DNA of 64,000 bases. It comes from Deferribacter desulfuricans SSM1. GTDB taxonomy: Bacteria > Chrysiogenota > Deferribacteres > Deferribacterales > Deferribacteraceae. The stretch is from NCBI RefSeq assembly GCF_000010985.1, contig NC_013939.1, positions 496,001-560,000 on the forward strand, read 5' to 3'. A model generated the notes under the pieces. It ran no database searches and had not been told where the DNA came from. It saw nothing but the letters and a program-made list of their open reading frames with translations. Below, one piece after another: positions 888 to 31,804 of this stretch. The position numbers and the translations under genes are program-made. Position 1 is the first letter of the stretch. Each line of letters begins with the position of its first letter.

Positions 888-941
888 ATTTTAGTATTGA
901 TAGATAAATAAAATGAATGTATACTATTATATGAGGTGCTT

Positions 942-1244
942 ATGTCTGGTATAAATAAAGTTAATTTTCTTTTACCAAATAAGTTAGAGCCAGATAAAAA
1001 GACTGAATCAAAAGAATCGAAAAACGTAGATTTTTCAGAGCTTCTGAAAAATGCAATTAAAGATGTAAATAATGCTCAGTTACAAGCTGATGAAGCTGTT
1101 AAAAAAGTATTGAGTGGTGAAACAAAAGATATTCATGAAACTATGATTGCGTTACAAAAAGCTGATGTTTCTTTAAAGTTGATGTTAGAAGTGAGAAATA
1201 AACTTATAGAGGCTTATCAAGAAATAATGAGAACACAAGTATAA
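942..1244 (+). CDS. fliE: flagellar hook-basal body complex protein FliE
   Basis: Small protein thought to join the MS ring to the rod and an early substrate of flagellar export. The 100 residues contain the FliE core (VDFSELLKNAIKDVNNAQ, then the HETMIALQKADVSLKLMLEVRNKLIEAYQEIMR region). I place the start at the ATG at 942 rather than the GTG at 936, because GAGG at 933-936 is then a correctly spaced ribosome site. It is followed after 15 bases by fliF. Confidence 0.95.
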   Translation: MSGINKVNFLLPNKLEPDKKTESKESKNVDFSELLKNAIKDVNNAQLQADEAVKKVLSGETKDIHETMIALQKADVSLKLMLEVRNKLIEAYQEIMRTQV

Positions 1245-1259
1245 TCTTATGGATAATTT

Positions 1260-2930
1260 ATGGCATTGAAGGATTTTATCAATCAGTTTAAAGCAGTTTT
1301 TAACAGTTTGAGTTTAATTCAAAAAGTTTCTATAGTTACCGCGACTGTTGCAGTATTTTTAACTATTATTGTGTTAGTTATATGGGCTAACAAGCCTGTG
1401 TATAAAACTTTGTATTCAAATTTATCATCAGATGATGCAGCAAAAATTGTTGAAGAATTAAAAGCAAATAAAATTCCTTATGAACTTAAAGATAATGGGA
1501 AAACTATTTTAGTCCCAGAAAAAAATGTTTATGAACTAAGGTTAAATCTTGCACAAAAGGGTTTGCCTTCTGGTGGTGGTGCAGGTTTTGAATTGTTTGA
1601 TAAATCTTCATTTGGTATCTCAGAATTTGCTCAAAATGTTAATTATCAGCGAGCATTACAAGGTGAATTAGCAAGGACAATTAAAAGTTTAGATGAAGTA
1701 GAAGATGCAAGAGTCCATTTAACTTTACCAAAAGAGAGGATATTTGTATCTGAGGAGAGTTCACCTAAGGCGACGGTAGTACTAAAGTTTAGAAATGGTG
1801 CAAATATTAGTCGTGAAAATATAAAAGCGATTGCTTCTTTGGTTGCTGGGGCAGTAAAAGGGCTTACAATTGATAATGTGCAGGTTGTGGATACAAAAGG
1901 GAGGCTTTTGAGTGAATTTTTATCTAAGGATTATGAGCCTCTTTTATTAACCCAAACTCAGTTGGAATATCAAAAGCATATAGAAAAGAATCTTGAAAGT
2001 AAAATAAATTCGATTTTGTCTAGAGTATTAGGTCCAGATAATGCTGTTGCTAAAGTTACAGCTGATATAGATTTTACTAAAAAAGTTGTTTCTAAAGAAG
2101 AATATGATCCAAATCCTGTTTTGAGATCTCAGCAAACAGTAGAAATTGAAAGTAAAAATACTCCAAATGCTCCAGGGGGGACACCGGGAGTATCTTCCAA
2201 TTTAGCAGAACCAAACAACATAAATAATGGCTCTAACTCTGAGTATTCAAAAGCTGAGACTACCCAGAATTTTGAAGTGGGCAAAACTGTTACTAAAGAG
2301 GAAAAGCCAATAGGCGTAGTAAAAAAGATAACAGTTGCAGTTTTGTTAAATGATAAAAAAGTGGTAAAAGAAGAAGGGAAAAAGAGTAAAATAGAGTATG
2401 TCAAATGGACGCCTGAAGAAATAGAAAAGATTAAAAAATTAGTTGAGTCTGCAGCTGGTATTGATGTTAATAGGGGTGATAGGATTGAGGTAACAAATAT
2501 ATCATTTGATACAACTCACGATTTAGAAGTGGCTTCTTTTTATAATAAGCAGGAAAAGATGAGTCTTATATTTACAATTGCAAAATATGTTTTAGCGCTA
2601 TTGATAGTAGTCTTGTTCTACTTCCTTGTTGTAAGACCTATTTTGAAACGACTTGAAACAGTAAGGGAAACAGAAGAGGGGACTTTTGTTGCTGCCGGTG
2701 CTACAGGAAAAGGTGAATCGGTAGATATTAGCATTGGTGAAGAGATTAAATTTCCTAAGACTATAGAGGAATTAGAAAAAGAGATAGAAAATGAGTTAGA
2801 GGAAAGTGCTCCAGTTGATGTTGATACCGTAAAAACTAAAGTTATGTTGAAAAAACTTGAAGAAGCTGCAAATGAAGATCCAGAAACAATAGCTAATTTG
2901 ATAAAAGTATGGATTAAAGGTGGTAGTTGA
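1260..2930 (+). CDS. fliF: flagellar MS-ring protein FliF
   Basis: Inner-membrane ring protein on which the rod, export gate and C-ring are built. The 556 residues have the expected layout: a first membrane helix at about 23-43, a periplasmic YscJ/FliF ring-building region (about 45-250, including GLPSGGGAGFELFD and the DEVEDARVHLTLPKE motif), a variable Asn/Gly-rich linker near 300-325, a second membrane helix near 437-460, and an acidic C-terminal tail that should bind FliG. The stop overlaps the fliG start by one base, so the two are translationally coupled. Confidence 0.97.
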   Translation: MALKDFINQFKAVFNSLSLIQKVSIVTATVAVFLTIIVLVIWANKPVYKTLYSNLSSDDAAKIVEELKANKIPYELKDNGKTILVPEKNVYELRLNLAQKGLPSGGGAGFELFDKSSFGISEFAQNVNYQRALQGELARTIKSLDEVEDARVHLTLPKERIFVSEESSPKATVVLKFRNGANISRENIKAIASLVAGAVKGLTIDNVQVVDTKGRLLSEFLSKDYEPLLLTQTQLEYQKHIEKNLESKINSILSRVLGPDNAVAKVTADIDFTKKVVSKEEYDPNPVLRSQQTVEIESKNTPNAPGGTPGVSSNLAEPNNINNGSNSEYSKAETTQNFEVGKTVTKEEKPIGVVKKITVAVLLNDKKVVKEEGKKSKIEYVKWTPEEIEKIKKLVESAAGIDVNRGDRIEVTNISFDTTHDLEVASFYNKQEKMSLIFTIAKYVLALLIVVLFYFLVVRPILKRLETVRETEEGTFVAAGATGKGESVDISIGEEIKFPKTIEELEKEIENELEESAPVDVDTVKTKVMLKKLEEAANEDPETIANLIKVWIKGGS

Positions 2931-3940
2931 TGGCAGAAGAGAGAGAGCAGCTTAGCGGTATAAAAAAAGCAGCAATCCTATTAATTACGCTTGGGGAAGA
3001 AGTATCTAGTAAGATAATGGCAGAGCTTGATGATGAAGAAGTAGCAGATATTTCAAAAGAGATAGCTCTTACAAAAATAGTTGATCCAGCTGTTGCTGAT
3101 GATGTTGTTGAAGAGTTTTATAATATGTATTTGGCCAAAAAGTTTATTTCTAAGGGTGGTCTTGATTATGCAAAATCAGTTTTGACTAAATCTCTTGGGC
3201 CTGAGCGTGCAAGAAAAATTATAGATAGATTGACTAAACTCCTTGAGCAGTCAACGGGTTTTGAATTTTTAACTAAGATAGATCCAAAGCAACTTGCAAA
3301 ATTTATACAAAATGAGCACCCACAAACAATAGCACTCATTTTAGCTCACTTAGATCCATCTCAAGCAGCTGAAGCTTTAGCTGAGCTGCCAGAAGATTTG
3401 AAAGCTGATGTGGCTTTACGTATAGCTAATTTACAAGATATTTCTCCTGCTGTAATAAAAACATTATCCAAAACTTTGGAAGAGAGATTTGAATCTATTA
3501 GCTCATATAAAGTTGATGTTGGTGGTGTTAAATCTGTTGCTGAGATATTAAATAGAATGGATAGAACTACAGCTAAAACAACATTAGAGAGATTGGAGAA
3601 AGATGCTCCAGAACTCGTGAGTCAGATAAGAGATATGATGTTTACATTTGATGATATCAGAAGACTCGATAATACTGCTATCCAAGAGATTTTGAAGCGT
3701 GCGGATAAAAATACTTTAACTTTAGCACTAAAGGGTGCAGATGAGGAGCTTCAAAATAAATTCTTTTCTAATATGTCTAAAAGAGCCGTTGAGACTATGA
3801 AAGAAGAGATGGAGTATATGGGGCCTGTCAAACTTAAAGAGGTAGAAAAAGCTCAGCATGAAATAGTCCAAATAGTAAGAGAGTTGGATGAAGAAGGTGT
3901 AATAAGTATTTCTGGTGGAGAAGAAGAGCAATACGTATAA
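2930..3940 (+). CDS. fliG: flagellar motor switch protein FliG
   Basis: C-ring switch/torque protein linking FliF to FliM and facing the stator. The 336 residues show the N-terminal FliF-binding domain, the middle domain with the conserved EHPQTIA motif (about residue 127 onward), and the C-terminal domain with charged helices ending in GPVKLKEVEKAQHEIVQ. I choose the ATG at 2930, which overlaps the fliF stop and follows AAAGGTGG, over a TTG three bases earlier. FliM and FliN are not in this window. Confidence 0.97.
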   Translation: MAEEREQLSGIKKAAILLITLGEEVSSKIMAELDDEEVADISKEIALTKIVDPAVADDVVEEFYNMYLAKKFISKGGLDYAKSVLTKSLGPERARKIIDRLTKLLEQSTGFEFLTKIDPKQLAKFIQNEHPQTIALILAHLDPSQAAEALAELPEDLKADVALRIANLQDISPAVIKTLSKTLEERFESISSYKVDVGGVKSVAEILNRMDRTTAKTTLERLEKDAPELVSQIRDMMFTFDDIRRLDNTAIQEILKRADKNTLTLALKGADEELQNKFFSNMSKRAVETMKEEMEYMGPVKLKEVEKAQHEIVQIVRELDEEGVISISGGEEEQYV

Positions 3941-18730: not shown

Positions 18731-20696
18731 AATTCAATTCCTCTTAGGCACTCTAAAAACCAGAAATAACAGGTTCAATCAAAGTATATGATAGAAAGTT
18801 TCAATTCCTCTTAGGCACTCTAAAAACAGAGTTAATTTTTTGTTGTACTCTTGTTCAAGGTACTGTTTCAATTCCTCTTAGGCACTCTAAAAACCAATCA
18901 AATCAAAAGCTGAGTATGTTGTATCTACTACAGTTTCAATTCCTCTTAGGCACTCTAAAAACATGTCCCAGGTTTTGTTTATTTGTTAGTGGATAGGAGT
19001 TTCAATTCCTCTTAGGCACTCTAAAAACCAAGTATTGATGCAGTAGCTTGTGAGGTGGGTGATGGTTTCAATTTCTCTTAGGCACTCTAAAAACGCTCCT
19101 CAAGACTCATCTTGACAATTTGACGACCATGTTTCAATTCCTCTTAGGCACTCTAAAAACAAGAGCTTGAGAAGGGACTCGAAAGGTTTCTTGCAGTCAG
19201 TTTCAATTCCTCTTAGGCACTCTAAAAACGTGAAAATCCATCTCGGGGATAAAGAGGAAATAAAAGAGTTTCAATTCCTCTTAGGCACTCTAAAAACTAT
19301 TAAATCGTTTATACTTGATGTTGCAGATGTGCTGTTTCAATTCCTCATAGGCACTCTAAAAACTTTCAAAGAGAATAAAAAGATAATTCTAACTGAAGAT
19401 GGTTTCAATTCCTCATAGGCACTCTAAAAACAATATTTATATGAAATCATTGAATCAAAAGATAACAAGTTTCAATTCCTCATAGGCACTCTAAAAACCT
19501 CACTGTGTTTTAGAAATTAGAAGCTTAAAAAATGGGTTTCAATTCCTCTTAGGCACTCTAAAAACTTTTTATACCATTGATTAGCTCGTTGTTCGATATT
19601 GTGTTTCAATTCCTCTTAGGCACTCTAAAAACCCGCTTATCGCTGCAGCTGTCAAAACGGGGAAAGATAGTTTCAATTCCTCTTAGGCACTCTAAAAACC
19701 TCTGCACAAAGCTTGTTATCAGGCTCGGCGAACAGGGGTTTCAATTCCTCTTAGGCACTCTAAAAACCTATAGCAATTTCATCCTTGTCTTTCATTAGGG
19801 AAGTTTCAATTCCTCTTAGGCACTCTAAAAACAAATATCTAAAGTTACTTTACGAATAGGAAACCATTGTTTCAATTCCTCTTAGGCACTCTAAAAACAA
19901 AGAAAACTAATGAAGGGGGTAGTTATGAAATATAAGTTTCAATTCCTCTTAGGCACTCTAAAAACATATTTATTGCATAAACGAAAATAATGATGGAAAT
20001 GGTTTCAATTCCTCTTAGGCACTCTAAAAACATGGGCTTTTGTTGCCATAAAAGCATATCTATTTTGTTTCAATTCCTCTTAGGCACTCTAAAAACCCAA
20101 CCCTTTTCCATAAATAGTTATATTACAGTCTCTGTTTCAATTCCTCTTAGGCACTCTAAAAACTACATCAGTTCAATCTCCCGTTGTTTTTCAATTGTTG
20201 TTTCAATTCCTCTTAGGCACTCTAAAAACAGAAAAGATTAATCAATTTGGGGTTACTGTTCAATTGTTTCAATTCCTCTTAGGCACTCTAAAAACTTTTA
20301 AAATTGTATCCACCATATTGGTCTTCAATGGCGTTTCAATTCCTCTTAGGCACTCTAAAAACTTGAACAAATTCTGCAAGGTTGGTCTGAACAAGATACG
20401 TTTCAATTCCTCTTAGGCACTCTAAAAACGAAAACATTCAGAAATGAACATTGTGAATGGTATTCGTTTCAATTCCTCTTAGGCACTCTAAAAACTTGAC
20501 ATAGAAGTTGAACAAGGAAGTGATACAAGTCTGTTTCAATTCCTCTTAGGCACTCTAAAAACATATATAACATCAGAATCTTTAAACCAACGCGGAAAAG
20601 TTTCAATTCCTCTTAGGCACTCTAAAAACTATATTATATAAAGAAAACAGACCATCCTTGTAGATAGTTTCAATTCCTCTTAGGCACTCTAAAAAC
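18731..20696 (-). CRISPR. CRISPR array 1 (30 repeats, 29 spacers)
   Basis: Thirty 30-base repeats at a period of 64-69 bases; spacers of 34-39 bases, mostly 36-37. Plus-strand repeat: GTTTCAATTCCTC, TTAGG, CACTCTAAAAAC. Read on the minus strand it ends ATTGAAAC, the usual type I 5' handle, so transcription is leftward. The leftmost repeat (18731) is degenerate in its first two bases, as expected at the trailer end. Repeats at 19334, 19402 and 19469 carry CATAGG (array 2 type) instead of CTTAGG. The repeat at 19067 has one C-to-T change. Confidence 0.99.
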
Positions 20697-20926
20697 CCTT
20701 ATCCCTACGAAATATCAAATTGTCAAACATCTTTGATAAATCTACTAATTTTATTATACAAAATTTTGAAAAATGTGTCAAATTTAAAGTGATTTTTAGT
20801 CGACCTCTAATCTTGTAAAAAAACCTGGAGATCGACAACTGATTGATACATATAAATGAATACAATATTTCTATGGTTTTCTAATAAAAAAATTTTTAGA
20901 AAAATATCAAAAATAATGGGGGTCGA
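20697..20926 (-). promoter_or_regulatory. CRISPR leader 1
   Basis: The 230 bases between the newest repeat of array 1 and the cas3 stop. Minus-strand promoter: TTGACA (20781-20776), 17 bases, TATAAT (20758-20753), so pre-crRNA starts about 50 bases before the first repeat. Three GTCGAC-like boxes (20799-20804, ATCGAC 20831-20836, 20922-20927) form inverted repeats around the promoter's upstream side. Most of it is repeated in leader 2. Confidence 0.9.
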
Positions 20927-23263
20927 CTAAAAACTAAAAAATAGCCCGCCTTTTACTTTAAAACCAGTTTCTAAATCATAATACTCATGTATGTTTTCAT
21001 ACGGAACAAAATAAAAATTGTTTTCAATTGGTGGTGGATTGTCTTTAATTGGAACTGATACAACAAATTTATAAAAGTCTGATTTTATACTGTCAAATGC
21101 CTTTTTTCTTTCAAATAAATCCTGTAACTGCCATATTTTTGTATATTCTTCCCATACTTTTTTGGCTTCATTATCAATTTCAATAAAAACATCTTCCTTA
21201 TAGTAGTCTTCTTTTATTAAAACAAAATCTTCAATAGATTTAATCTTGTCTTTTTCTTTTTCTGCTGAAAACTTTAGTGTGTATAGCATTTCTAGCATAT
21301 CTAAGGAGACTTTGTCAGATTTTATTTGCTTTATTTTTTCAAAATACTTATTTACTAAACCTATAAACTCTTTCTCTGAATAAATTTCTTTTTCAAGAAT
21401 TTCATCTGTAGCATTTATCAAAACAGAATCATATATGTATGAACTATAAGATCTGTTATTTTTATCATCAAAAAGTTTTACTATATAAAATTTACCTTTT
21501 TCTTTTTTTCCTTCTCTGTTACACCTACCAGCAGATTGATTTAAACTGTCAAAAGGTGCAAAATCTCTGTAAACAATGTCAAAATCAATATCTACGCCTG
21601 CTTCTACGAGTTGTGTTGAAACTGCAATTCTTTTATTATGGTTTTTCAACTCTTTAATTCTTTTTAGTCTTTCTTTTGGAATAATATGAGTCGATAAAAA
21701 TATTATTTCATCTTTGAAATCTTTTTTAAGAAATTCAAAAAGCATTTTAGCAGAACTTACAGTATTCATTATAAAAAGATAAGTTTTGTTATCTTCTATA
21801 TTTAAATTTGAGTAGAACAGCTCAATAGTCTGCTGTGTTTTATTTATAAAAACATCGTATCGATCTATATGTTCAAAATAATCTTTGCTTGCAAGCTCAA
21901 TATATTTCTTTTTTTCAAAAATCATTGGCTGAGTAGCTGTTGAAAAGATAATATAAAAATTAAATTTTTCTGCCATTCGGCATAATACTTCTTTTATTAG
22001 TAACCAATACTTATGGGGAATAGACTGAATTTCATCTAAAATGGCTACAGAGTTTGCTAATCTATGAAATTTTCTGAGCATTTTATTTTTATTTCCTATG
22101 AGTGAGTAAAAAAACTGTAAAAATGTTGTAGTAATTATTTTAGAATTCCAACCTTCAATTAAAAGCCTTGAAGTATTATAATCAAACTCATCAACTTTTG
22201 ATTTATAGCTAAAACCAGTCAAATGGTGATGTTTTAAAAGAATTGAGCTGTCTAGATTTATGTCGTTTTCTTTTAAAACATTTTCAAAAACACTAAAATT
22301 TTGTTCAATAATAGAAAGGAAAGGCAAGCAGTAGATAATCTTTAGGTTTATTCCTTTTTCTTTTTTTAATTTTTCTGCTATTTTTAAAGCTGTTTTAAAT
22401 GAGATAAGTGTTTTTCCAAGTCCTGTTGGAAGGGTTAAGGTATAAATTTTCTGATTTATATCTATTTCTTTTTCTGCAACTTCTTTGTAGGCTTTTTTCC
22501 TGAGGTTTATAATCTCTGTTTCTTCAAAAGAAAGATTTTTTACGAAATTATCAACGATTTCCGGTTTTATTTGAATGTCTTTAAAAAGTATATTTTTATC
22601 TGTTTTTATACCTACATCTGATTTGTCTGCATCAAGAATTAGAGAAAACATAAAAACTGTATTTATGTAGTAATCAATTGATTTTTCATCTTTGAGTTTT
22701 CTAATAAATCTTCTTATTTTTCTTAAAGTTTGCTTTATTTGCTGAAAATCTATTTCTTCGAAAGAAAAATTGATTAAGTTTTTATCGCAAGTTTCCACAT
22801 TTTGTAGAAAATTTTTAAATTTTTCTTTATCGATTGAGTTTATCTGAGTTTGTAAAATTTTTATATCTTCTTCTTCAATAACTAAATCATTTAAAAAGTC
22901 TTTAAGGTTTGAATGATGGCGTTTAGGTAAAATGTATGACAATGAAAGGAGAAAAGGGTTATCTATATTTTTAGACTTTAAATATCTATCAGTTAAAAAA
23001 AGTCCAGCTATTCCACCCAAATGGGCATGTTTTGTCTCTAATTTATTTTTTAATTCTTTATCACCAAGAATATAATCTTGAAAAAATTGTGTAGATTTTC
23101 CTATGTCATGGGAAAAGGTTATGATTGTTAATATATCTTTTAAAATTTTGTCATTAATAGAAATTTCTGAATAATATTTATTGGCTAATTCTATAACTTG
23201 TGAAGTATGCTTTTCTAACAGCCTGTCAGGATGGGAATGGAGTTTTGAATTAATATACTTCAT
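20927..23263 (-). CDS. cas3: CRISPR-associated nuclease/helicase Cas3 (HD + SF2)
   Basis: Degrades target DNA recruited by Cascade. The 778 residues have an N-terminal HD nuclease domain (SHDIGK at 51-56, KHAHLGG near 78-84, KRHHSN near 114-119) fused to an SF2 helicase. The helicase has Walker A TGLGKT at about 280-285, DEIQ near 410 in place of DEAD/H, the ATQP motif, and QSAGRCNREG as motif VI. All catalytic motifs look intact. It is the last gene of the cas cluster. Its start overlaps the toxin gene by 14 bases, so its translation may depend on the toxin-antitoxin transcript. Confidence 0.97.
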   Translation of the reverse strand: MKYINSKLHSHPDRLLEKHTSQVIELANKYYSEISINDKILKDILTIITFSHDIGKSTQFFQDYILGDKELKNKLETKHAHLGGIAGLFLTDRYLKSKNIDNPFLLSLSYILPKRHHSNLKDFLNDLVIEEEDIKILQTQINSIDKEKFKNFLQNVETCDKNLINFSFEEIDFQQIKQTLRKIRRFIRKLKDEKSIDYYINTVFMFSLILDADKSDVGIKTDKNILFKDIQIKPEIVDNFVKNLSFEETEIINLRKKAYKEVAEKEIDINQKIYTLTLPTGLGKTLISFKTALKIAEKLKKEKGINLKIIYCLPFLSIIEQNFSVFENVLKENDINLDSSILLKHHHLTGFSYKSKVDEFDYNTSRLLIEGWNSKIITTTFLQFFYSLIGNKNKMLRKFHRLANSVAILDEIQSIPHKYWLLIKEVLCRMAEKFNFYIIFSTATQPMIFEKKKYIELASKDYFEHIDRYDVFINKTQQTIELFYSNLNIEDNKTYLFIMNTVSSAKMLFEFLKKDFKDEIIFLSTHIIPKERLKRIKELKNHNKRIAVSTQLVEAGVDIDFDIVYRDFAPFDSLNQSAGRCNREGKKEKGKFYIVKLFDDKNNRSYSSYIYDSVLINATDEILEKEIYSEKEFIGLVNKYFEKIKQIKSDKVSLDMLEMLYTLKFSAEKEKDKIKSIEDFVLIKEDYYKEDVFIEIDNEAKKVWEEYTKIWQLQDLFERKKAFDSIKSDFYKFVVSVPIKDNPPPIENNFYFVPYENIHEYYDLETGFKVKGGLFFSF

Positions 23264-23522
23264 CGTGATGTCCTATATCTATTAAAACTATTTCTTTTTT
23301 TACAATTACAAAAGTTAAAATAATTCTATAGCTCATAGTGATTGAAACTGAATATTTATCTTTAAATTTTCCTTTTAACTTATGAAGTCTTAAAGATGGA
23401 TGATGTGGGTCTAACTCTAAAAGTTTCAAAACTTTTTTATATCTTGGTATTAAATCTTTATGCTTTTTTAAAAATTCTTTTTCTCTTTTTAGATAGATTT
23501 CTGTAAAAACGAGGGAATACAA
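23250..23522 (-). CDS. RelE/YafQ-family mRNA interferase-like toxin
   Basis: The 90-residue basic protein has the RelE/ParE pattern: N-terminal helices (EKEFLKKHKDLIPRYKKVLKLL), the SLRLHKLKGKFKDKYSVSITMSYRIIL core with conserved Leu-Lys-Gly and Arg, and a terminal IDIGHHDEVY strand. YafQ-like toxins end with similar Gly-His-His/Asp-Tyr residues and cleave mRNA at the ribosome. It starts with TTG immediately after the antitoxin stop and overlaps cas3 downstream. No frameshift is visible, so it is likely active. Confidence 0.87.
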   Translation of the reverse strand: MYSLVFTEIYLKREKEFLKKHKDLIPRYKKVLKLLELDPHHPSLRLHKLKGKFKDKYSVSITMSYRIILTFVIVKKEIVLIDIGHHDEVY

Positions 23523-23771
23523 CTAAATACCTAACCTCTGGAAATGTTCTTCTGCAGTTTCTTTTATATATCTTCCTTTTTTATAATCTTCTTCTGCTTC
23601 TTTAATAATCTTATCAAGTTCTGCTTCTTTTAATTTCTCATATTCTTCAACGGGAAGGATTACAAATTTCTTTTTTCCTCTTACAGTAATGAAAACTTCG
23701 TTATATTTTTTTATAAGTTTTTCAACGAATGAAATTCCTTTTGTTTTTAAATCATTAGCTGATAATATCAT
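23523..23771 (-). CDS. Phd/YefM-like antitoxin
   Basis: The 82 residues have an N-terminal Phd/YefM DNA-binding fold (SANDLKTKGISFVEKLIKKYNEVFITVRGKKKFVILPVEEYEKLKE) and a charged C-terminal tail (DYKKGRYIKETAEEHFQRLGI) of the kind that wraps the partner toxin. It has its own ribosome site (AGAGG), a TATAAA -10, and a perfect palindrome upstream, consistent with autorepression. It lies between cas5 and the toxin. Confidence 0.85.
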   Translation of the reverse strand: MILSANDLKTKGISFVEKLIKKYNEVFITVRGKKKFVILPVEEYEKLKEAELDKIIKEAEEDYKKGRYIKETAEEHFQRLGI

Positions 23772-23780
23772 AAAAACCTC

Positions 23781-23815
23781 TTTATAGCATTTACATTAAT
23801 ACTAAATATAGTATT
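23781..23815 (-). promoter_or_regulatory. toxin-antitoxin promoter and operator
   Basis: The minus-strand -10 TATAAA is at 23786-23781. AATACTA-N4-TAGTATT at 23798-23815 is a perfect seven-base-arm palindrome covering the -35 position, the expected place for antitoxin/toxin complex binding. It lies in the 71-base gap between cas5 and the antitoxin. Confidence 0.65.
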
Positions 23816-23842
23816 TTCTTATTACTTTGTAAAGTTTATAAT

Positions 23843-24535
23843 TTAAAAGAAAGAAACGATTTTATCTTCAATTTTATAGCAATTTTTGAAATTACCTTCT
23901 AACTTTTGACCGTTAAGCTCCATGATTACATCTTCATATTTTAAAACCTCTCTATTTTGGTTCATATCTATTGGGAGTTTTTCTTTAAAATATTTTTTCC
24001 CTTCTTCAACTTCTATATTTTCAACATTTTTTGAAAGAATTGCCGAATTTACAAAGTCAGCATTACCAGTAGGTTCTGCTTTAAAAGCTCCTATATATTT
24101 GAAATTTGCAAGCAAATTTGCAAGTCCTAAAGATAAAGTGTAGTAAGTTTCTTTATTTTTAACTCTCTGAATTAGTTTATTAAACAAATCTTCATTATTG
24201 ATGTTTACATAAAATCTGTACGCTGGATTTCTTAGAAATTCTGTTTTTATCTGCGTTCTTGACTTTATTAAATGAAAACTGTTAGAGTTTTTAGTATCAA
24301 TTAGGTTTATTGTCATTCTTGTTTTCTTTATAGGATTTAATATTTGAATGGCTATTTTAGTAGTTTTAACATTTAGATATTGAAGATACTCATTTTTTCC
24401 AAATCCTAAAATCGCTCCTAACATTCCATAAACTGCTGTAGGTGGTGGAACAGAAAATGTCAATGGTGAAGATGTTGTATAAAACTTTTTAAAATGTCCA
24501 AAATCTCCCCAAATATCAAAGACTAATACTTTCAT
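23843..24535 (-). CDS. cas5: Cas5 (type I-B)
   Basis: Cascade subunit that caps the 5' handle of crRNA. The 230 residues begin KVLVFDIWGDFGHFKKFYTTSSP and continue with the typical Cas5 glycine-rich PPPTAVYGMLGAILGF (about 30-45). A second beta-rich part includes NPIKKTRMTINLIDTKN. The start codon overlaps the stop of a 16-codon remnant frame (ATGA). In standard I-B operons cas5 directly follows cas7; here a broken nucleotidyltransferase gene separates them. Confidence 0.92.
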   Translation of the reverse strand: MKVLVFDIWGDFGHFKKFYTTSSPLTFSVPPPTAVYGMLGAILGFGKNEYLQYLNVKTTKIAIQILNPIKKTRMTINLIDTKNSNSFHLIKSRTQIKTEFLRNPAYRFYVNINNEDLFNKLIQRVKNKETYYTLSLGLANLLANFKYIGAFKAEPTGNADFVNSAILSKNVENIEVEEGKKYFKEKLPIDMNQNREVLKYEDVIMELNGQKLEGNFKNCYKIEDKIVSFF

Positions 24536-24582
24536 TTATCAAATTCCTTTTTAGAAAAAAATTTATATTCTCGTTCAGACAT
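24532..24582 (-). pseudogene. short remnant frame, possible HEPN (DUF86) start
   Basis: A 16-codon frame (MSEREYKFFSKKEFDK) begins inside the end of the repaired nucleotidyltransferase frame and stops in the cas5 start. HEPN/DUF86 partners of MNT proteins often begin with a similar Ser-x-Arg-x-Tyr-Lys pattern in just this overlapping position. I suggest the rest of a HEPN toxin gene was deleted. The match is short and tentative. Confidence 0.35.
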
Positions 24583-24872
24583 TTATTGCCTCTCCATATA
24601 TATATTTTTTCAATTCTTTTCTTACAGCTTCTTTTATTACTAAATCTACTTTCTTTCCAAACAATTCTTCCAAATAAAATTTCAATCCCATATAGTTTAT
24701 AAAATGTTTTCTTCCCTTTTTCAAACTCTACTAATATATCAATATCGCTATCTGGAGTTTGTTCTCCTCTAACATAAGAGCCAAAAATATATAAATTCTT
24801 AACTCCAAACCTTTCTTTTATCTCTTTTTTATGCTTCTTCAAAAGCTGTTTAATATCTTCTAATGTCTTCAT
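24575..24872 (-). pseudogene. MNT-type nucleotidyltransferase (MntA-like), frameshifted
   Basis: The first 54 or so residues are a clear minimal nucleotidyltransferase: IFGSYVRGEQTPDSDIDILVEF with the GS-x9-D-x-D catalytic pattern. After VEFEKG the open frame turns to non-homologous sequence and ends at 24516. Dropping one base in the A/G-rich run near 24713-24721 restores a family-like end (YMGLKFYLEELFGKKVDLV ... YIYGEAINV) stopping at 24575. So the gene is broken by a single-base insertion, or the base is a sequencing error. MNT proteins are antitoxins that AMPylate HEPN ribonucleases. It sits between cas7 and cas5. Confidence 0.8.
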
Positions 24873-24886
24873 AGTTTAAAATAAAT

Positions 24887-25792
24887 CTAAATTTCTATTT
24901 TTTCAAAGTTTATTTTCTCTGAAGAAAAATCTTTATTCAGTCTTAAATTTCTGTCAATTTTATATAAAACTTTTTCAATTTTATCTGCTTCTTCTTCTAA
25001 TGCATATATGAGTTCATCAATATTCAGAATAAAGTCATCAGTGCTTCTAAGCTCTTCATCTGCTTTTTCAGATTCGAGTTTTATATATCTGTGTAATTCT
25101 CCAATATGTGAATGAACCTCATTTTTATAAATAACTTCTATTAGGAGTCTTGGTATTTGTTCGTTTTTTGAGCGGGTGATAAGATTTTTTGTTCCTTCCC
25201 ACATCCCTTTTTTTAGATATTCTAAGTCTGTATCTGTTAATTTTGTTGTTTTTGCAGCATTTTCGTTTGCAACTCCATGAAATGCTATTAGAGAATAGGG
25301 CAAAATCCATTCTTCTCTGAATGTTTTTTGTTCTTTCCCAGCTGTTGAGGCAAAAGCACCTGTCCCTTTGATATATTCTAGCTTTACTCTATGAAGTGAT
25401 TGTCCCATATTAAACTGAACTGCACCTGTATAGGTAATTGAACTATCTTTGTTTTTCCCAGTTGTAATAGGGATTGTACCACCAAACAGTCTGACATCGA
25501 TACACTCATTTAATATTTTTTCAGGATTATTTTCAAAATCTTTTGCTCTTGCTTTTGCATCTTGGATTTTACCATTTTCATCAGCAATTTCTCTAACAAA
25601 AATTTCCAGTCCCTCAAAATCTTTTAAATAGTCCCTTATAGTTCTTTTCAGTCTTACATCTGTAACGATATTTTTCCCAGTTTCTTCATCAATTCGTGGT
25701 TTGTTTTCATCATTTGGATCTCCGTTTGGGTTAGCAAAGCTAACATCATATAAAAATAGATATTCTCTTCGATTTTTAATAATTTCACTCAT
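24887..25792 (-). CDS. cas7: Cas7 (Csh2 family, type I-B)
   Basis: Backbone subunit of Cascade that coats the crRNA spacer. The 301 residues start with the Csh2 signature (REYLFLYDVSFANPNGDPNDENKPRID, about 9-35), then VTDVRLKRTIRDYL and GAVQFNMGQSLHRV, with the HGVANENAAKTT stretch near the middle. A good AAGGAG site precedes the ATG. It follows cas8b by 42 bases. Confidence 0.96.
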   Translation of the reverse strand: MSEIIKNRREYLFLYDVSFANPNGDPNDENKPRIDEETGKNIVTDVRLKRTIRDYLKDFEGLEIFVREIADENGKIQDAKARAKDFENNPEKILNECIDVRLFGGTIPITTGKNKDSSITYTGAVQFNMGQSLHRVKLEYIKGTGAFASTAGKEQKTFREEWILPYSLIAFHGVANENAAKTTKLTDTDLEYLKKGMWEGTKNLITRSKNEQIPRLLIEVIYKNEVHSHIGELHRYIKLESEKADEELRSTDDFILNIDELIYALEEEADKIEKVLYKIDRNLRLNKDFSSEKINFEKIEI

Positions 25793-25834
25793 GACCTTAC
25801 TCCTTTTTTTTATAATTTTACTATAAAAATTATT

Positions 25835-27511
25835 TCATTCTTCTTTTTCATAAATAATATTTGCAACTTCTTTTGATAGTGCCATTCCAGAAGCAAAATA
25901 GAAATTTATTTCATCTATTGTTAAACCAAATTTTTCTTGAGCTAAAAATTCTTTTGATATTTCCTTTGTTAATTCTTGTTTACCTTTATCAAATCTTTCA
26001 TATTCCATAAGCTTGTTAATCACTTTAGGTAGTAAACCTTTTATATTCTCTTCATTCATTTTTAGACCTTTAAGATTTTTAAAAAAAGGTGTGCTTTCTC
26101 TTTCCTGTCCTTGAATGTTTAAAAGCATCTGAGTTAAAGCTCCAAGTAAGAAAATACCTCTTTTAGCAGGAGTATTTAAAGATTTTCCTACTTTTTCGAA
26201 AATCTTATCGAATTTTGTCTTTTCCATTTTATTCTCCTCACAGTTTATTAAACAAAGCTCTTCAAAAAAATTAATATTCATTAGAGCATCTATTACTGTA
26301 TAGTTGAAATTTTTATTATTTAAAAAATCACTTCTTATTTTTCTGTTAAATATTTGAATAAGAGTTTTAAAATTGAGCTTACCACTTCTAAAAATTTTAT
26401 CTATTACTTCAAAAAAAAGCTTATCAAACTCTTTTAAAAATTCATTAAGTTTAGCAAAAGTGTAATTTTGCTCAAAAATTCTGTCAATTTTGGTTTTTGT
26501 CTCATATATGAAATGAATTCTTGAGGGAAAAACATCTTCTATTAAAAGCAAAATTCTCTCTGCTGCATTATCTTTTTTTAGGAACAGAAAATAAAAGCTC
26601 ACAACATCTTTATAATCTTTGATAATATCAAGGATTTCTTCTTTGTCTCCAGTTATTGTTTTTCTTTGCTCATTTGTCAGTTTTTGGATTTTTTCTTCTG
26701 AGGTTAAAATCTCATTTATTTCATCAAGAGCCTCAGGAACATTAAGAATCATTTTTGGAATGAGATAATAGGTTTTACTGTAAAAGTTATATTTGAGGTG
26801 TTCTTCTACAAATTTTTTGGCAAAATCCACTTTTAAAAAGCACTTCTCACAAATAGGGAAATTCTTCCAAGCCTCTTTTTTGTTAAATCCGCCTGTGATG
26901 TAGCATTCTTTATCAAGGGTGTAAAATTTGTAAATTTGTGAAGTTGTAAACACTTCTTCTTTTTTCTCTCCACAGACGCTGCAAACTGCATCTTTTTTTG
27001 AAATCTCTTTTATTTTATTTAAATAATCTTCAAGTAAAATTTTCTTAAAGTCTGGATTTTCTATTTCATAGAGATATTTTCCATCAATTTTAATAGTTAA
27101 AATTTTGTTATCTTTTGTTTGTTGATTTAGTTCTTCTAATTTTTTAATAATTTCATCTTTGTTTTTTACAAGTTCATTATAAATGTTTTTAATTTCTATG
27201 ATGTTGTTGTGACCTTCAAGCCATTTCAGAAGTTTTTTTGTAAATGTTTTTTCTGGTTCTGTAACTCTTGAAGTTGGGGAAAAATCAGGTGCGTTTGAGC
27301 CAGAAGCTCTTTTATAAAGGTAAATATAAGGAGATTCAGCTTTAAACTCTTCTACTGAAAGTTTTTGAAAATTCAAATCCTTATCAAACTCTAATGCCCA
27401 GACTACTTTGTATGTTCCGCTGCTATCAGGATTTTCTATAAGAATATCAATCGGAGTTTTATTTTCCTTTTCTAAAAGTATCTCTCCTAAATCTTTAATA
27501 GCTGTCAACAT
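25835..27511 (-). CDS. cas8b: Cas8b (Csh1-like large Cascade subunit)
   Basis: The 558-residue large subunit is expected to recognise the PAM and recruit Cas3. The N-terminal half has a zinc-finger-like arrangement (CSVCGEKKEEV then FPICEKCFLKVDFAKKF, about residues 185-235), a feature of Cas8b/Csh1/TM1802 proteins. The rest is helical, ending KEVANIIYEKEE. Identification rests on the zinc motif, length and position between cas6 and cas7; Cas8 sequences diverge quickly. Confidence 0.9.
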   Translation of the reverse strand: MLTAIKDLGEILLEKENKTPIDILIENPDSSGTYKVVWALEFDKDLNFQKLSVEEFKAESPYIYLYKRASGSNAPDFSPTSRVTEPEKTFTKKLLKWLEGHNNIIEIKNIYNELVKNKDEIIKKLEELNQQTKDNKILTIKIDGKYLYEIENPDFKKILLEDYLNKIKEISKKDAVCSVCGEKKEEVFTTSQIYKFYTLDKECYITGGFNKKEAWKNFPICEKCFLKVDFAKKFVEEHLKYNFYSKTYYLIPKMILNVPEALDEINEILTSEEKIQKLTNEQRKTITGDKEEILDIIKDYKDVVSFYFLFLKKDNAAERILLLIEDVFPSRIHFIYETKTKIDRIFEQNYTFAKLNEFLKEFDKLFFEVIDKIFRSGKLNFKTLIQIFNRKIRSDFLNNKNFNYTVIDALMNINFFEELCLINCEENKMEKTKFDKIFEKVGKSLNTPAKRGIFLLGALTQMLLNIQGQERESTPFFKNLKGLKMNEENIKGLLPKVINKLMEYERFDKGKQELTKEISKEFLAQEKFGLTIDEINFYFASGMALSKEVANIIYEKEE

Positions 27512-28271
27512 ATTTTTCCCTTTTTATTGTATTATTTAATATTTCTACCATTCCAAAACCTTGGGAGTTTTTCGCTCCAAGACCTGCGTCATAAACAGTT
27601 TTAAAAAGTTCAGGGATTGTTTTTATCTTAAAAGTTCCTTCATAGGCTTCTATTGGAAAATCTTTGTATTTGAATAATACTTTTTTTGTTTTTATTGGCT
27701 GTATTTCAATTGGAAACTCTGAAATCTCTTCACCTGTAATGATTTCAAATTTTTTTCTTAGATTTTCTTTTATTAAATATTGGAATTCAGGTTCACTTGG
27801 TGAGTAGTATCTATAATATTTTTTTCCATTTTCAAAAGTTTTATAAGCAGTTATTGGAGATAATGTTTTTATTATAAAATCTTCTTCAAAGTATGGGTTT
27901 TGGAGAACTTCTATACTTTCAAGATAAAGTGGATTTTTACCTAAAAAAATATTTTCTTTTTTCAAAAATGTTTCCCCCCAATTTTTTGTAAAGTCATTTA
28001 TAGCCGAAGAAATAAAAATAGTTATTGGAGTTTTATATTTAATTTTTGTGATTTTACTTTTTTCTCTGATAAGCTCAAAATATTTGGATTGAATTTTTGA
28101 GAAAGTAAATAGTTTAAACTGCCTTTTGTAATAAAAAAAGCCAATTTCATGAAGAAAATTTGCAAGTGGAGTAGGAAGATTATTATAAAACATACTTTGA
28201 AGTAAATAATTGTGATGAATAGGCAAAATTATATATTCGTTATCAGAATTAAATAAAAGCTTTATTTTCAT
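27495..28271 (-). CDS. cas6: Cas6 pre-crRNA endoribonuclease
   Basis: Cuts pre-crRNA within each repeat and leaves the ATTGAAAC handle. The 258 residues have two RAMP-type halves and the C-terminal glycine-rich loop (GLGAKNSQGFGMVEIL) characteristic of Cas6. A His in the N-terminal part (LPIHHNYLLQS, about 17-27) is a candidate catalytic residue. The gene has a private promoter whose -10 lies six bases before the ATG, so interference genes may be expressed separately from cas4-1-2. Confidence 0.94.
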   Translation of the reverse strand: MKIKLLFNSDNEYIILPIHHNYLLQSMFYNNLPTPLANFLHEIGFFYYKRQFKLFTFSKIQSKYFELIREKSKITKIKYKTPITIFISSAINDFTKNWGETFLKKENIFLGKNPLYLESIEVLQNPYFEEDFIIKTLSPITAYKTFENGKKYYRYYSPSEPEFQYLIKENLRKKFEIITGEEISEFPIEIQPIKTKKVLFKYKDFPIEAYEGTFKIKTIPELFKTVYDAGLGAKNSQGFGMVEILNNTIKREKYVDSY

Positions 28272-28277
28272 AATAAT

Positions 28278-28305
28278 ATTTTAACATATACTTTTAACTT
28301 TTCAA
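28278..28305 (-). promoter_or_regulatory. cas6 promoter (leaderless type)
   Basis: Minus strand TTGAAA (28305-28300), 16 bases, TAAAAT (28283-28278), then six bases and the cas6 ATG (28271). There is no Shine-Dalgarno sequence between. Confidence 0.55.
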
Positions 28306-28315
28306 CAATAGTTGA

Positions 28316-28582
28316 TTAAAAAAATAAATCTTCATGTGAAGGCTTTGATATACCGATAGAATCTCTTTCATAATATTTTTTTGTTCTGAATTTATAAATC
28401 AATACAGAGTCTTCATTTTCATCCATTATATCTTTTAATTCGTCAGTAAGTATACGGAGATTTGCTTCTGTTATTTCTCCTTCGAAAACGCTATTTTGAA
28501 CCCAAGTTAAATATTTTTTGCAAGTTTTATGAAATTTTTGCACCCTTTTTTCATTTGCATCATATACTAATATTATAAACAT
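28316..28582 (-). CDS. cas2: Cas2 spacer-acquisition protein
   Basis: The 88 residues have a ferredoxin-like fold with the N-terminal beta strand IILVYDANEKRVQKFHKTCKKYL carrying the conserved Asp8. The middle is WVQNSVFEGEIT, and the end has a SIGISKPSHEDLFF tail. It forms the Cas1-Cas2 integrase scaffold. It begins four bases after cas1. Confidence 0.97.
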   Translation of the reverse strand: MFIILVYDANEKRVQKFHKTCKKYLTWVQNSVFEGEITEANLRILTDELKDIMDENEDSVLIYKFRTKKYYERDSIGISKPSHEDLFF

Positions 28583-28585
28583 TTA

Positions 28586-29578
28586 TCACCAATTAGTTAT
28601 AAATGGTTTGTAAATATCTTCTTTTAAAAAGTGTTTATAAAGTTTGTAACACTCTAATCTGATAAGTTTTCTATAAGAAACTTTTCCTATATTTTTATAA
28701 TTTATTGTTGTAGCTAATTTTTCTTCAAATAATTTTATAAAGATTTGTCTTCCTTTTTCGTTTAAATAAGTAAAATCAATTTCTTGTTCAAAATGTTTTA
28801 GCTGTATTTGCTTTTTGTTAATGAGGCTAAAAATTACTCTATCAACTATTATTGGTTTGAAAACTTCAGCTAAATCCAAATTTAAACTAAAACTGCGTTG
28901 GTTGGTTTCGTGGAGATAGCCGATTCTAGGGTCAAGATGTGTTCTATAAATTTGAGATAGAATTGTAGTATATATCAGTGAGTTGCCAAAACTTATTAGG
29001 GCATTTATTGGGTTTTCGGGTGGTCTTTTAGTCCTTTTATCGAAATAAAAATCTTCAAAGTTTAAGATTACATTAAAGGCATCATAATATATTTTTCTTA
29101 TTTCACCCTCGAGAGCCATTAAAGATGAGATACTTGATTTATTGTTTATTTTTTTTGATTTTTCTTCTATTTGTTCAATATATGGTGTTATTTTTTCTAA
29201 TTTTGTTTTTTTATAGTAATTGAGATTTTTTAAAATGTTTGATAATCCTCCACTTACAAAACTTTTTGCTAAAAATAGTCGTTCTTCTTTATTTAAATAA
29301 AATTCTGCTTGTTTCAAAATTATGATGCCGGCATTTAAGTATTCTCTTGGATAATAACTTCCAATGTAATATCCATAGTAGTTGTAAAAGTATAAAGGTA
29401 TTTTGTTTTTTGTTAAAAATTCAAGCGCTCTTTTATTTATATCGATTTCACCAAAAACATGTATTTCAGATACTGCATTTATTGGTATTGTCTTTTTTTC
29501 GTTATCCTTGATGAAAAATAAGGTGTTATCTTTTCTTTTTAATTCGCCGTCATTAAATATATATATTGGTTTCTTCAT
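28586..29578 (-). CDS. cas1: Cas1 integrase (type I-B)
   Basis: Catalyses spacer insertion at the leader-repeat junction. The 330 residues show ALEGEIRKIYYDAF (metal-binding Glu), PENPINALISFGNSLIYT, and LHETNQRSFSLNLDLAEVFKPIIVDR with the metal-binding His and Asp/Glu. The N-terminal beta domain starts PIYIFNDGELKRKDNTLFF. All active-site motifs are intact, so acquisition is presumably functional. Confidence 0.98.
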   Translation of the reverse strand: MKKPIYIFNDGELKRKDNTLFFIKDNEKKTIPINAVSEIHVFGEIDINKRALEFLTKNKIPLYFYNYYGYYIGSYYPREYLNAGIIILKQAEFYLNKEERLFLAKSFVSGGLSNILKNLNYYKKTKLEKITPYIEQIEEKSKKINNKSSISSLMALEGEIRKIYYDAFNVILNFEDFYFDKRTKRPPENPINALISFGNSLIYTTILSQIYRTHLDPRIGYLHETNQRSFSLNLDLAEVFKPIIVDRVIFSLINKKQIQLKHFEQEIDFTYLNEKGRQIFIKLFEEKLATTINYKNIGKVSYRKLIRLECYKLYKHFLKEDIYKPFITNW

Positions 29579-29584
29579 GATGTT

Positions 29585-30079
29585 CTAACTCCAGCACATC
29601 TCTTTATAAGCGCAATTTTTACAATAATGGATTTTTGTTGCTTTTGGAGGCTTATCCATATTTAGTATTTTATTAATATTACTTATTGCATTTTTAAGTT
29701 CATTTTCGATTTCTTTTGTCAAAAATATTTTTTTCTTTTTTCTCTCTTCAGGGAACAAAAGCTCACCCGATAAATTTATTCCCTTTTGCTTTAAAAAATA
29801 TAAGTAAAAAGCAATTTGCATAGTTGCACTTTTTAAGTATTTTGAAGATTTTTTGATTTCACCAATAACTTTTTTACCAGGCAAGATATCTATTTTTATT
29901 GTATTATCGATAATAAATTCTTTTTTTTGCTTTTTGTAGTAGAAATCATGAATATGCCTTCCTAAAGCTAAAAAGTCGTTTTCCTGATCTGCTTCTATGG
30001 AATGACCAATAAACCATACTTCTCGTGGACAGATATAATAATACCAAATAAGAGTTCCGTTGATATTAACTGTATCCAT
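29585..30079 (-). CDS. cas4: Cas4 exonuclease
   Basis: RecB-like Fe-S nuclease that trims and PAM-selects prespacers. The 164 residues have a first Cys in IWYYYICPREVW (about 17), the GRHIHDF motif, GEIKKSSKYLKSA with the catalytic Glu-x-Lys, MQIAFYLYF (QhxxY motif), and the C-terminal three-Cys cluster HYCKNCAYKEMCW. It heads the cas gene set, only about 50 bases from the trailer end of array 2. A TATATT -10 lies six bases before the ATG. Confidence 0.96.
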   Translation of the reverse strand: MDTVNINGTLIWYYYICPREVWFIGHSIEADQENDFLALGRHIHDFYYKKQKKEFIIDNTIKIDILPGKKVIGEIKKSSKYLKSATMQIAFYLYFLKQKGINLSGELLFPEERKKKKIFLTKEIENELKNAISNINKILNMDKPPKATKIHYCKNCAYKEMCWS

Positions 30080-30085
30080 ATTATT

Positions 30086-30091
30086 AATATA
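30086..30091 (-). promoter_or_regulatory. -10 element for cas4 (leaderless type)
   Basis: TATATT on the minus strand, six bases before the cas4 ATG at 30079. No convincing -35 is seen at normal distance; read-through from array 2 is an alternative source of transcript. Confidence 0.4.
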
Positions 30092-30128
30092 AAATTAATG
30101 GATATTAGTAAAAGCTTTTATTTAATTA

Positions 30129-31564
30129 ACTTCAAATCCTTTAAGGCACTTTAAAAACAAAGAACTTGAGAAGGAAGTTTATATTGATCTACCTTGTTTC
30201 AAATCCTTTTAGGCACTCTAAAAACTCAACCAATCTATATTAGTCCGAATTATATTCATTTGAGTTTCAATTCCTCATAGGCACTCTAAAAACTGATGAA
30301 TGAGGAAATACCAATTTCGCCTGATGATCGTTTCAATTCCTCATAGGCACTCTAAAAACAAAAACAAAAGATAAGGCAATCGCAAAACGCCTATTGTTTC
30401 AATTCCTCATAGGCACTCTAAAAACTTGATGAAGCTCAAAAAATATTCGATAGGAAATTTTAGTTTCAATTCCTCATAGGCACTCTAAAAACTAACAAAT
30501 AGTGAATCAGATTCAGTTTACAAATGATGTTTCAATTCCTCATAGGCACTCTAAAAACTAACAAATAGTGAATCAGATTCAGTTTACAAATGATGTTTCA
30601 ATTCCTCATAGGCACTCTAAAAACATAATAGGCATTACTGTAATAAATAAAGTAGTTAAAAGTTTCAATTCCTCATAGGCACTCTAAAAACGAAAAATTA
30701 GGAAAAGCACGCTAAAAAGCGTGCTTTTTGTTTCAATTCCTCATAGGCACTCTAAAAACTTGTCAATCCAAATATTACAGTTGTGCAATTTGCGCAACGT
30801 TTCAATTCCTCATAGGCACTCTAAAAACAATTGTACAAATCTGTAATTTTCTTTTTGTTGTTTAGGTTTCAATTCCTCATAGGCACTCTAAAAACTTGTC
30901 AAATAAATAACTAATGTAATTGTGCAAATCTGGTTTCAATTCCTCATAGGCACTCTAAAAACAGACTCAACGACGGTTTTATGGAGCATTATAGATGGTT
31001 GTTTCAATTCCTCATAGGCACTCTAAAAACGATGGTTTGACCTTCAAAACCTTGCGAACGAAATTATTGTTTCAATTCCTCATAGGCACTCTAAAAACTT
31101 CCAAAAAACTTGTGGGGTTGGAAGAAGCAGGAAAAGTTTCAATTCCTCATAGGCACTCTAAAAACTTGCAACCCTTCATGCTTTGAACTTTGTTCAAAGC
31201 GAAAGTTTCAATTCCTCATAGGCACTCTAAAAACAAGGGGCTCAAAGCGTGGAATAATAAAAGAGTTTTCGTTTCAATTCCTCATAGGCACTCTAAAAAC
31301 TAATAGCTCTTCTTGGTCCGCTATTAACAGCAAAGTCGTTTCAATTCCTCATAGGCACTCTAAAAACGAACGCGCTCATATCTATGGACATCTTTTAAAC
31401 CCGTTTCAATTCCTCATAGGCACTCTAAAAACATTTCTGGACTCTATGGACATAATGGACACTTTTTTGTTTCAATTCCTCATAGGCACTCTAAAAACAA
31501 AACCCGACGCCATTATTAATGTCATCGGGTTTTCGTTTCAATTCCTCATAGGCACTCTAAAAAC
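30129..31564 (-). CRISPR. CRISPR array 2 (22 repeats, 21 spacers)
   Basis: 30-base repeats differing from array 1 mainly by CATAGG for CTTAGG; period 65-69. The two leftmost repeats (30129 and 30196) are degenerate, marking the trailer end, so transcription runs leftward from the leader at 31565 toward cas4. One spacer-repeat unit is duplicated exactly (spacers at 30493 and 30559). Three spacers contain strong hairpins (see findings). Confidence 0.99.
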
Positions 31565-31804
31565 CCCTTATCCCTATGAAGTATCGAATTGTCAAACATC
31601 TTTGATAAATCTATTAATTTTATTATACAAAATTTTGAAAAGTATGTCAAATTTAAAGCAATTTTTAGTCGACCTGTAATCTTGTAAAAAAACCTGGAGA
31701 TCGACAATTAATTGATACCTATAATTAAATATAAGATTTTTATGGTTTTCTAATAAAAAAAATTTCCTTAAAAAACATTAAAAATTGCGAGATTGACTAA
31801 TTTA
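31565..31804 (-). promoter_or_regulatory. CRISPR leader 2
   Basis: Homologous to leader 1 over about 230 bases. The minus-strand promoter TTGACA (31650-31645), 17 bases, TATAAT (31627-31622) is conserved while surrounding bases vary. GTCGAC (31668-31673) and ATCGAC (31700-31705) boxes are kept; the third is degraded. From here to 31870 nothing else is seen. Confidence 0.9.

Follow-up and report, generated by a model that had tools for sequence, protein, structure and literature searches.

The window analysed herein is a stretch of 64,000 nucleotides from Deferribacter desulfuricans SSM1, whose genome comprises 2.54 Mb in two contigs (2,234,389 and 308,544 bases). It has a G+C content of 30% and contains two CRISPR arrays flanking a cas operon. 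The features discussed below are the following, with positions counted from the first letter of the window:

18731..20696, minus strand: CRISPR array 1, 30 repeats and 29 spacers, none of them with a strong hairpin
20753..20781, minus strand: promoter into array 1, TTGACA-17-TATAAT, 12 of 12 matches
20799..20836, no strand assigned: copy of the leader element before array 1, core at 20800-20835, 103 bp before the first repeat
20927..30079, minus strand: type I-B cas operon, between arrays 1 and 2
20927-23263, minus strand: cas3
23843-24535, minus strand: cas5
24516-24872, minus strand: gene for an MNT-type nucleotidyltransferase
24887-25792, minus strand: cas7
25835-27511, minus strand: cas8b/TM1802
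27495-28271, minus strand: cas6
28316-28582, minus strand: cas2, a small ORF adjoining cas1, named from position and size only
28586-29578, minus strand: cas1
29585-30079, minus strand: cas4
30129..31564, minus strand: CRISPR array 2, 22 repeats and 21 spacers, sense repeat GTTTTTAGAGTGCCTATGAGGAATTGAAAC
30692..30729, minus strand: spacer S13, folding energy -15.9 kcal/mol
31166..31204, minus strand: spacer S6, folding energy -11.0 kcal/mol, without a U-tract
31499..31534, minus strand: spacer S1, folding energy -16.7 kcal/mol, U-tract TTTTGTTTTTAG
31565..31785, minus strand: leader of array 2, sharing 89% identity with its counterpart before array 1 over 220 aligned bases
31622..31650, minus strand: promoter into array 2, TTGACA-17-TATAAT, 12 of 12 matches
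31668..31705, no strand assigned: leader element of array 2, GTCGACC-N24-GATCGAC, with a 36-bp core at 31669-31704, 104 bp before the first repeat

Cas8b/Csh1, Cas7/Csh2, Cas5b, Cas3, Cas6, Cas1b and Cas4 all exceeded the curated profile cut-offs (bit scores: TIGR02556 488.3, TIGR02591 260.3, TIGR02590 297.8, TIGR02592 153.5, TIGR01587 133.6, TIGR01877 142.8, TIGR03641 443.7, TIGR00372 87.9). With this gene set, near-identical repeats, and a conserved leader and promoter all present, the system is a type I-B CRISPR-Cas system. It resembles known systems with cas8b (TM1802/Csh1) in having I-B genes beside the array, a 30-nt repeat matching the Rfam CRISPR-DR2 model, a promoter-bearing leader and spacers of 35-39 nt; it differs from them in the hairpins carried by 3 of the 21 spacers of array 2, and we noticed no other oddity in the array. 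Between cas7 and cas5, the operon also encodes a 118-aa MNT-type nucleotidyltransferase (NTP_transf_2), which is MntA-like yet scores below the MntA cut-off. The region of cas2-cas1-cas4 and array (28316-31030) shares 71% DNA identity over 2.8 kb with positions 790-3511 of a contig from a Persephonella MAG (L131), where the repeat is identical, and the cas2-cas1-cas4 part (28326-30068) is 74% identical to a contig from a Hydrogenothermaceae MAG (L135). Such DNA identity suggests that the system was transferred between such bacteria.

The reading direction of the arrays matters for everything that follows. Both leaders lie at the right end of their arrays and match each other, both contain promoters with 12 of 12 matches, degenerate repeats occupy the left ends (in array 2, the trailer repeats at 30129 and 30196), the cas operon shares the strand of the promoters, and in its minus-strand reading the repeat ends in ATTGAAAC, the usual I-B handle. 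All of these features indicate that arrays 1 and 2 are transcribed on the minus strand, from right to left. The Rfam CRISPR-DR2 model matches the repeat of array 2 on the plus strand, which we took as the convention of the model. Reading array 2 from right to left makes the spacer at 31499 the leader-proximal and newest one, S1, while those at 31166 and 30692 become S6 and S13, respectively.

Some further traits of the spacer content deserve a comment. The spacers at 30493 and 30559 are identical and belong to consecutive repeat-spacer units (30463-30594), i.e., to a unit duplication. Neighbouring spacers also have motifs in common (30829-30932 and 31368-31468): AATTGTRCAAATCTG is found in the spacers at 30829 and 30896, and TCTATGGACAT in those at 31368 and 31433. 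Motif-sharing pairs with a score of at least 12 numbered 5, against 2.6 expected from shuffles, and overall such sharing was not above the shuffles. Three of the six first-listed motif-sharing pairs were adjacent spacers, and repeated capture from one region would give such pairs.

Upstream of the promoter, the leaders of both arrays carry an element of 38 bp with palindromic ends, GTCGACC-N24-GRTCGAC; between the ends, most copies contain TGCAAAAA or a near variant of it. The exact core pattern occurs at three places in the genome of D. desulfuricans, and all three lie 103-104 bp before an array: array 1, array 2 and an array on the plasmid, the last of these places being G000:C2:86492-86527. 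This third array, found on the second contig of 308 kb (G000:C2:82000-91000; L168 3627-4388), has 12 repeats GTTTATATTGTACCTATCAGGAGTTGAAAC; its repeat differs from that of arrays 1 and 2, and the leader element is what it has in common with them. The pattern stood 101-150 bp before the first repeat in 16 of the 32 array pieces with 30-nt repeats and at least 250 nt upstream in their locus, one of them with a divergent interior (L117), and was absent within 600 bp upstream of the pieces with 37-nt repeats, 29 of which had at least 250 nt upstream. By their titles, the loci bearing the element (L043, L048, L061, L093, L102, L103, L104, L114, L117, L119, L122, L124, L129, L153, L159) belong to Bacillota (Clostridium, Anoxybacillus, Paenibacillus and others), Chloroflexota and Aquificota. 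Across 1.16 Mb of loci, the pattern matched 22 times: 17 matches stood no more than 600 bp upstream of a called array, and five did not (L044, two in L081, L112, L150). An alignment of 17 chosen copies contained 20 invariant columns, 10 of which were not imposed by the search pattern. The pattern was also present in 18 of 23 genomes tried, where some matches had unrelated interiors. In the window and in L104, the interior has the opposite orientation with respect to the array. The element might be a leader-recognition or regulatory site. A narrow literature search returned no paper attributable to it, and the matches of one candidate were primers.

The initial annotation had pointed to strong stems in three spacers of array 2, and inverted repeats were indeed present in all of them, although that of S6 is modest. 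S13 contains a hairpin of 11 bp with a loop of 4 (30703-30728), S6 one of 9 bp with a loop of 3 (31180-31200), and in S1 nine perfect outer pairs surround a longer imperfect stem (31499-31533). All three spacers are of normal length (36-39 nt) and have intact repeats on either side. We compared the 50 spacers of arrays 1 and 2 with 500 dinucleotide shuffles each. No shuffle folded as low as S1 (z -5.79) or S13 (z -6.65), while S6 reached a z of -2.49 (p 0.012; stem-length p 0.007 with 300 shuffles). The z values shift with the shuffles, a second run giving -5.15, -6.99 and -2.6 for S1, S13 and S6, respectively. With 50 spacers tested, S1 and S13 stand out and S6 alone would not. None of the remaining spacers of arrays 1 and 2 had a z below -2.0; the spacers at 31301 and 19095 have stems of 7 bp (p 0.010) and 6 bp (p 0.027), and the energy of neither is low. 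In the plasmid array, no spacer of 11 fell below -1.8. At 65 C, the whole spacers S1 and S13 are predicted to be still folded (-7.0 and -8.2 kcal/mol).

That S1 and S13 (the third and first of these spacers by coordinate) look like intrinsic terminators had also been proposed, and a d'Aubenton-Carafa type score combining hairpin and U-tract (terminator called at d > 0) bore this out. S1 scored +8.7 in the sense direction and -20.8 in the antisense one, and S13 scored +6.8 and +23.8, respectively, while S6, with -93.9 and -65.0 at best, does not score as an intrinsic terminator. The best value for the other spacers, among 94 spacer-and-strand scores, was -18.8. For comparison, 50 ORF ends chosen in the window gave two scores above zero (45.9 and 38.0); the sense score of S1 is modest, far under both of these gene ends. 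A simple terminator scan reported S13 on both strands and did not report S1. The G+C cores of S1 and S13 (-11.9 and -10.9) are similar to those of the two positive gene-end hairpins (-11.6 and -12.2). Any hairpin ending a spacer at its 3' side has its U-tract prolonged by GTTTTTAG, the start of the sense repeat; S1 gains from this, everything beyond TTTT in its U-tract being the start of the next repeat. Along the direction of array transcription, S1 and S13 thus have the scores of intrinsic terminators, and S6 is a plain hairpin. S1 and S13 have in common with Rho-independent terminators a G+C-rich stem with a short loop, an A-tract and a U-tract on its flanks and a positive sense score. Unlike such terminators, they are embedded in spacers, between CRISPR repeats, the repeat supplies part of the U-tract of S1, and termination at them is a prediction from sequence.

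We then consider where these spacers could have come from. Because type I-B PAMs are diverse according to the accessible part of a large spacer-selection study (PMC8482600), no PAM was assumed in our searches; neither 'terminat' nor 'secondary structure' turns up in that part of the study. With up to 3 mismatches, S1, S6 and S13 matched only the array itself in 50 genomes of the phylum, including that of D. desulfuricans, and blastn gave no protospacer for them in 50,697 phage records or in 72,556 plasmid records. Exact patterns of 24-27 nt and of 19 nt from the three spacers yielded no protospacer in IMG/VR, and a 20-nt piece of S4 had no match there. The sole viral match of 19 nt, to the core of S1, falls within an ORF of contig L167 and has no hairpin arms; it is probably a chance match. 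The stem of S13 matched 25 phage records and 205 plasmid records, all at E values of 0.01 or above; judging from the best 20 of the 25 and the best 10 of the 205, these are hairpins of similar sequence and not protospacers. Among the matches listed, some are intergenic and some lie under genes. One of them, in the Lactobacillus phage JCL1032 (25 of 27 positions, E 0.01), lies 2 bases past the end of the last ORF, which is where a terminator would be, and it is not a protospacer either. Since no protospacer was found, we can only infer that S1 and S13 derive from terminators of invaders, as the initial annotation had suggested; such an origin is plausible.

Could the hairpins simply be chance palindromes of coding or other DNA, and not terminators at all? 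S6, with its modest z and no U-tract, fits such a possibility, and so does the only exact viral match to the S1 core, situated in an ORF without the hairpin arms. However, S1 and S13 lie beyond all 500 of their shuffles and carry A- and U-tracts on either side of a G+C core in the manner of terminators, and we consider this explanation unlikely.

Overall, we think that S1, S6 and S13 are probably ordinary I-B spacers, two of which, S1 and S13, were taken from terminators of invaders without any preference for such DNA, with partial termination as a possible consequence. The usual Cas4-Cas1-Cas2 adaptation, having no preference for terminators, would have captured S1 and S13 from intergenic intrinsic terminators of mobile elements that lie outside the collections searched. 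The hairpins would then form in the pre-crRNA ahead of Cas6 cutting and might lead to partial pausing or termination and to poorly loaded crRNAs. Premature termination of the pre-crRNA in the sense direction is, therein, possible at both S1 and S13. Its leader-proximal place and the extension of its U-tract by the GTTTTTAG of the repeat would make the effect of S1, on the 20 spacers following it, the largest; if S1 terminates well, all 20 spacers behind it would be attenuated.

A further reading is that S1, as an acquired terminator, largely silences array 2, the newest immunisation having switched off the older memory. In favour of it, S1 stands first in the array and has a positive sense score, its U-tract is lengthened to TTTTGTTTTTAG by the repeat, folding predictions keep its hairpin intact at 65 C, and no boxA motif was recognised by eye in the leader. 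However, the sense score of S1 is well under those of the gene ends at 38.0 and 45.9, the silencing is a prediction from sequence, and antitermination of CRISPR arrays has been reported in other bacteria (Stringer et al. 2020, cited in the accessible parts of PMC10883916 and PMC7862264). We regard a largely silenced array as unlikely, and it is quite unlikely that S1 is a captured sense terminator shutting down the 20 later spacers, leaving the array poisoned by its last acquisition.

The literature, as far as the accessible parts of the cited papers go, provides some background for such effects. Structure in an array reduces crRNA yield for Cas12a (PMC6610086), terminators and hairpins keep extraneous crRNAs in check in type II-C (PMC12080349), boxA elements overcome the polarity of long arrays (PMC7862264), and premature termination has been discussed for archaeal arrays (PMC10883916). 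The Cas12a and type II-C cases (PMC6610086, PMC12080349) resemble ours in that structure in or near a spacer cuts crRNA yield or targeting, and one of the hairpins tested there was itself a predicted terminator. They belong to class 2, unlike the I-B system described here, and we found in the accessible parts of these papers no experiment on a natural I-B array with spacers of this kind. Among the matches listed by our literature search, no title dealt with terminator-derived spacers in natural arrays.

Our reading that adaptation took S1 and S13 without preference could be set against spacers from other organisms. From a genome collection we gathered arrays with the same repeat core, at least 95 array pieces with 1901 spacers among the matches listed; the sample is not random, and the loci, of 8 kb at most, truncate the arrays that run past them. 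We left out 6 of the 95 pieces, holding 31 spacers, whose called repeat was shorter than 28 nt, together with 2 spacers that contained N or fell outside 28-46 nt and with 6 duplicates; 1862 unique spacers from 89 pieces in 79 loci were kept. The background consisted of 37-nt windows, for which the loop limit was one base shorter than for the spacers. Phage windows came from seven phage records (297 kb) that had been retrieved because they weakly matched these spacers; the listed places of such matches were masked, apart from a second weak match in L165. Host windows were the non-array parts of the surveyed loci. The G+C content was 41.5% in the survey spacers, 40.0% in the phage, 39.8% in the host and 33.2% in the spacers of our window. 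Terminators were scored on either strand, with the sequences set in the repeat context of the window.

Terminator scores above zero were obtained for 12 of the 1862 spacers (0.64%), against 24 of 4000 phage windows (0.60%, Fisher p 0.86) and 18 of 4000 host windows (0.45%, Fisher p 0.33). Terminator-like spacers are thus as common in the sampled related arrays as in random phage DNA, and this equality of rates gives no support to the earlier suggestion that acquisition favours terminators. Five of the 12 were oriented in the sense direction and seven in the antisense one, against 16 and 10 in phage windows (p 0.31), with no significant depletion of sense terminators. They occupy scattered positions in their arrays, and two pieces (L080 with 65 spacers, L159 with 69) hold two each.

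The same suggestion had been extended to hairpin DNA in general, and here the outcome was divided. Low folding energy was not enriched: 14 of 1862 spacers had a z of -4 or below, against 18 of 3000 phage windows (p 0.59), and one spacer had a z of -5 or below, against four of 3000 windows; z -6 was reached by 3 of 3000 random phage windows. Perfect stems of at least 9 bp, a cruder measure, were enriched. They occurred in 10 of 1862 spacers (0.54%), where shuffles gave an expectation of 1.6, and their share was about twice that in phage windows (0.226%, binomial p 0.011) and host windows (0.256%, p 0.024). In one run, S13 (z -6.99) was more extreme than all 1862 survey spacers, and S1 (z -5.15) was exceeded by one of them (-5.4). 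Such z values are inflated in A+T-rich sequence, as exemplified by a spacer from outside the survey (L170) with a z of -5.6 at only -3.8 kcal/mol. The L170 array, from a Persephonella MAG and with a repeat one base off that of array 2, also has a hairpin spacer, AAATATAGGGGGGTCTGAAAAAAGACCCCCCCTTA, of -20.3 kcal/mol and z -4.6.

Array 2 itself is somewhat unusual. At a rate of 0.6%, the chance of two or more terminator-like spacers is 0.035 among the 49 distinct spacers of arrays 1 and 2, uncorrected for the array having been picked by its hairpins, and 0.006 among the 20 distinct spacers of array 2, again an array picked for its hairpins. Perfect stems of at least 9 bp are present in 3 of the 49 distinct spacers, and all three belong to array 2; with the same choice of array, p is 0.0002 when phage windows serve as the reference and 0.0024 when the other spacers do. 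Array 1 and the plasmid array, which belong to the same genome and carry the same leader element, have no hairpin spacers of this kind.

These stems, together with the excess over shuffles, phage and host in the survey, are what speaks for an adaptation machinery that prefers hairpin or terminator DNA, whether in Cas4-Cas1-Cas2 or in a nuclease feeding it, through uptake of DNA that extrudes as cruciforms or hairpins or that stalls forks or polymerase at terminators. However, terminator-scored spacers (12 of 1862 against 24 of 4000) and folding z equal the phage background at both thresholds, and the two other arrays of the genome have no such spacer despite their leader element. We find a preference of this kind very unlikely; long perfect palindromes may be in excess, slightly in the other arrays and markedly in array 2. 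That the hairpins were selected in place as attenuators biasing crRNA output to new spacers is extremely improbable: the accessible part of a model paper does propose that termination within the array enriches young spacers, but it concerns repeat hairpins (PMC5749868), and the 12 terminator-like survey spacers show no enrichment of sense over antisense (5 and 7 of 1862) and are found at scattered positions.

We return to the probable reading, ordinary spacers that captured terminators without preference. Since spacers are copied into a transcribed unit regardless of their content, regulatory signals of invaders can enter the array. Our survey quantifies such capture of terminators at 12 of 1862 spacers in the sampled arrays, a rate that random phage DNA also gives, which argues against any special uptake of terminators. 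With a terminator-like spacer first in line, array 2 makes the cost of terminator capture measurable in one experiment. If S1 did prove to shut down the spacers behind it, terminators of invaders would be decoys that silence older memory.
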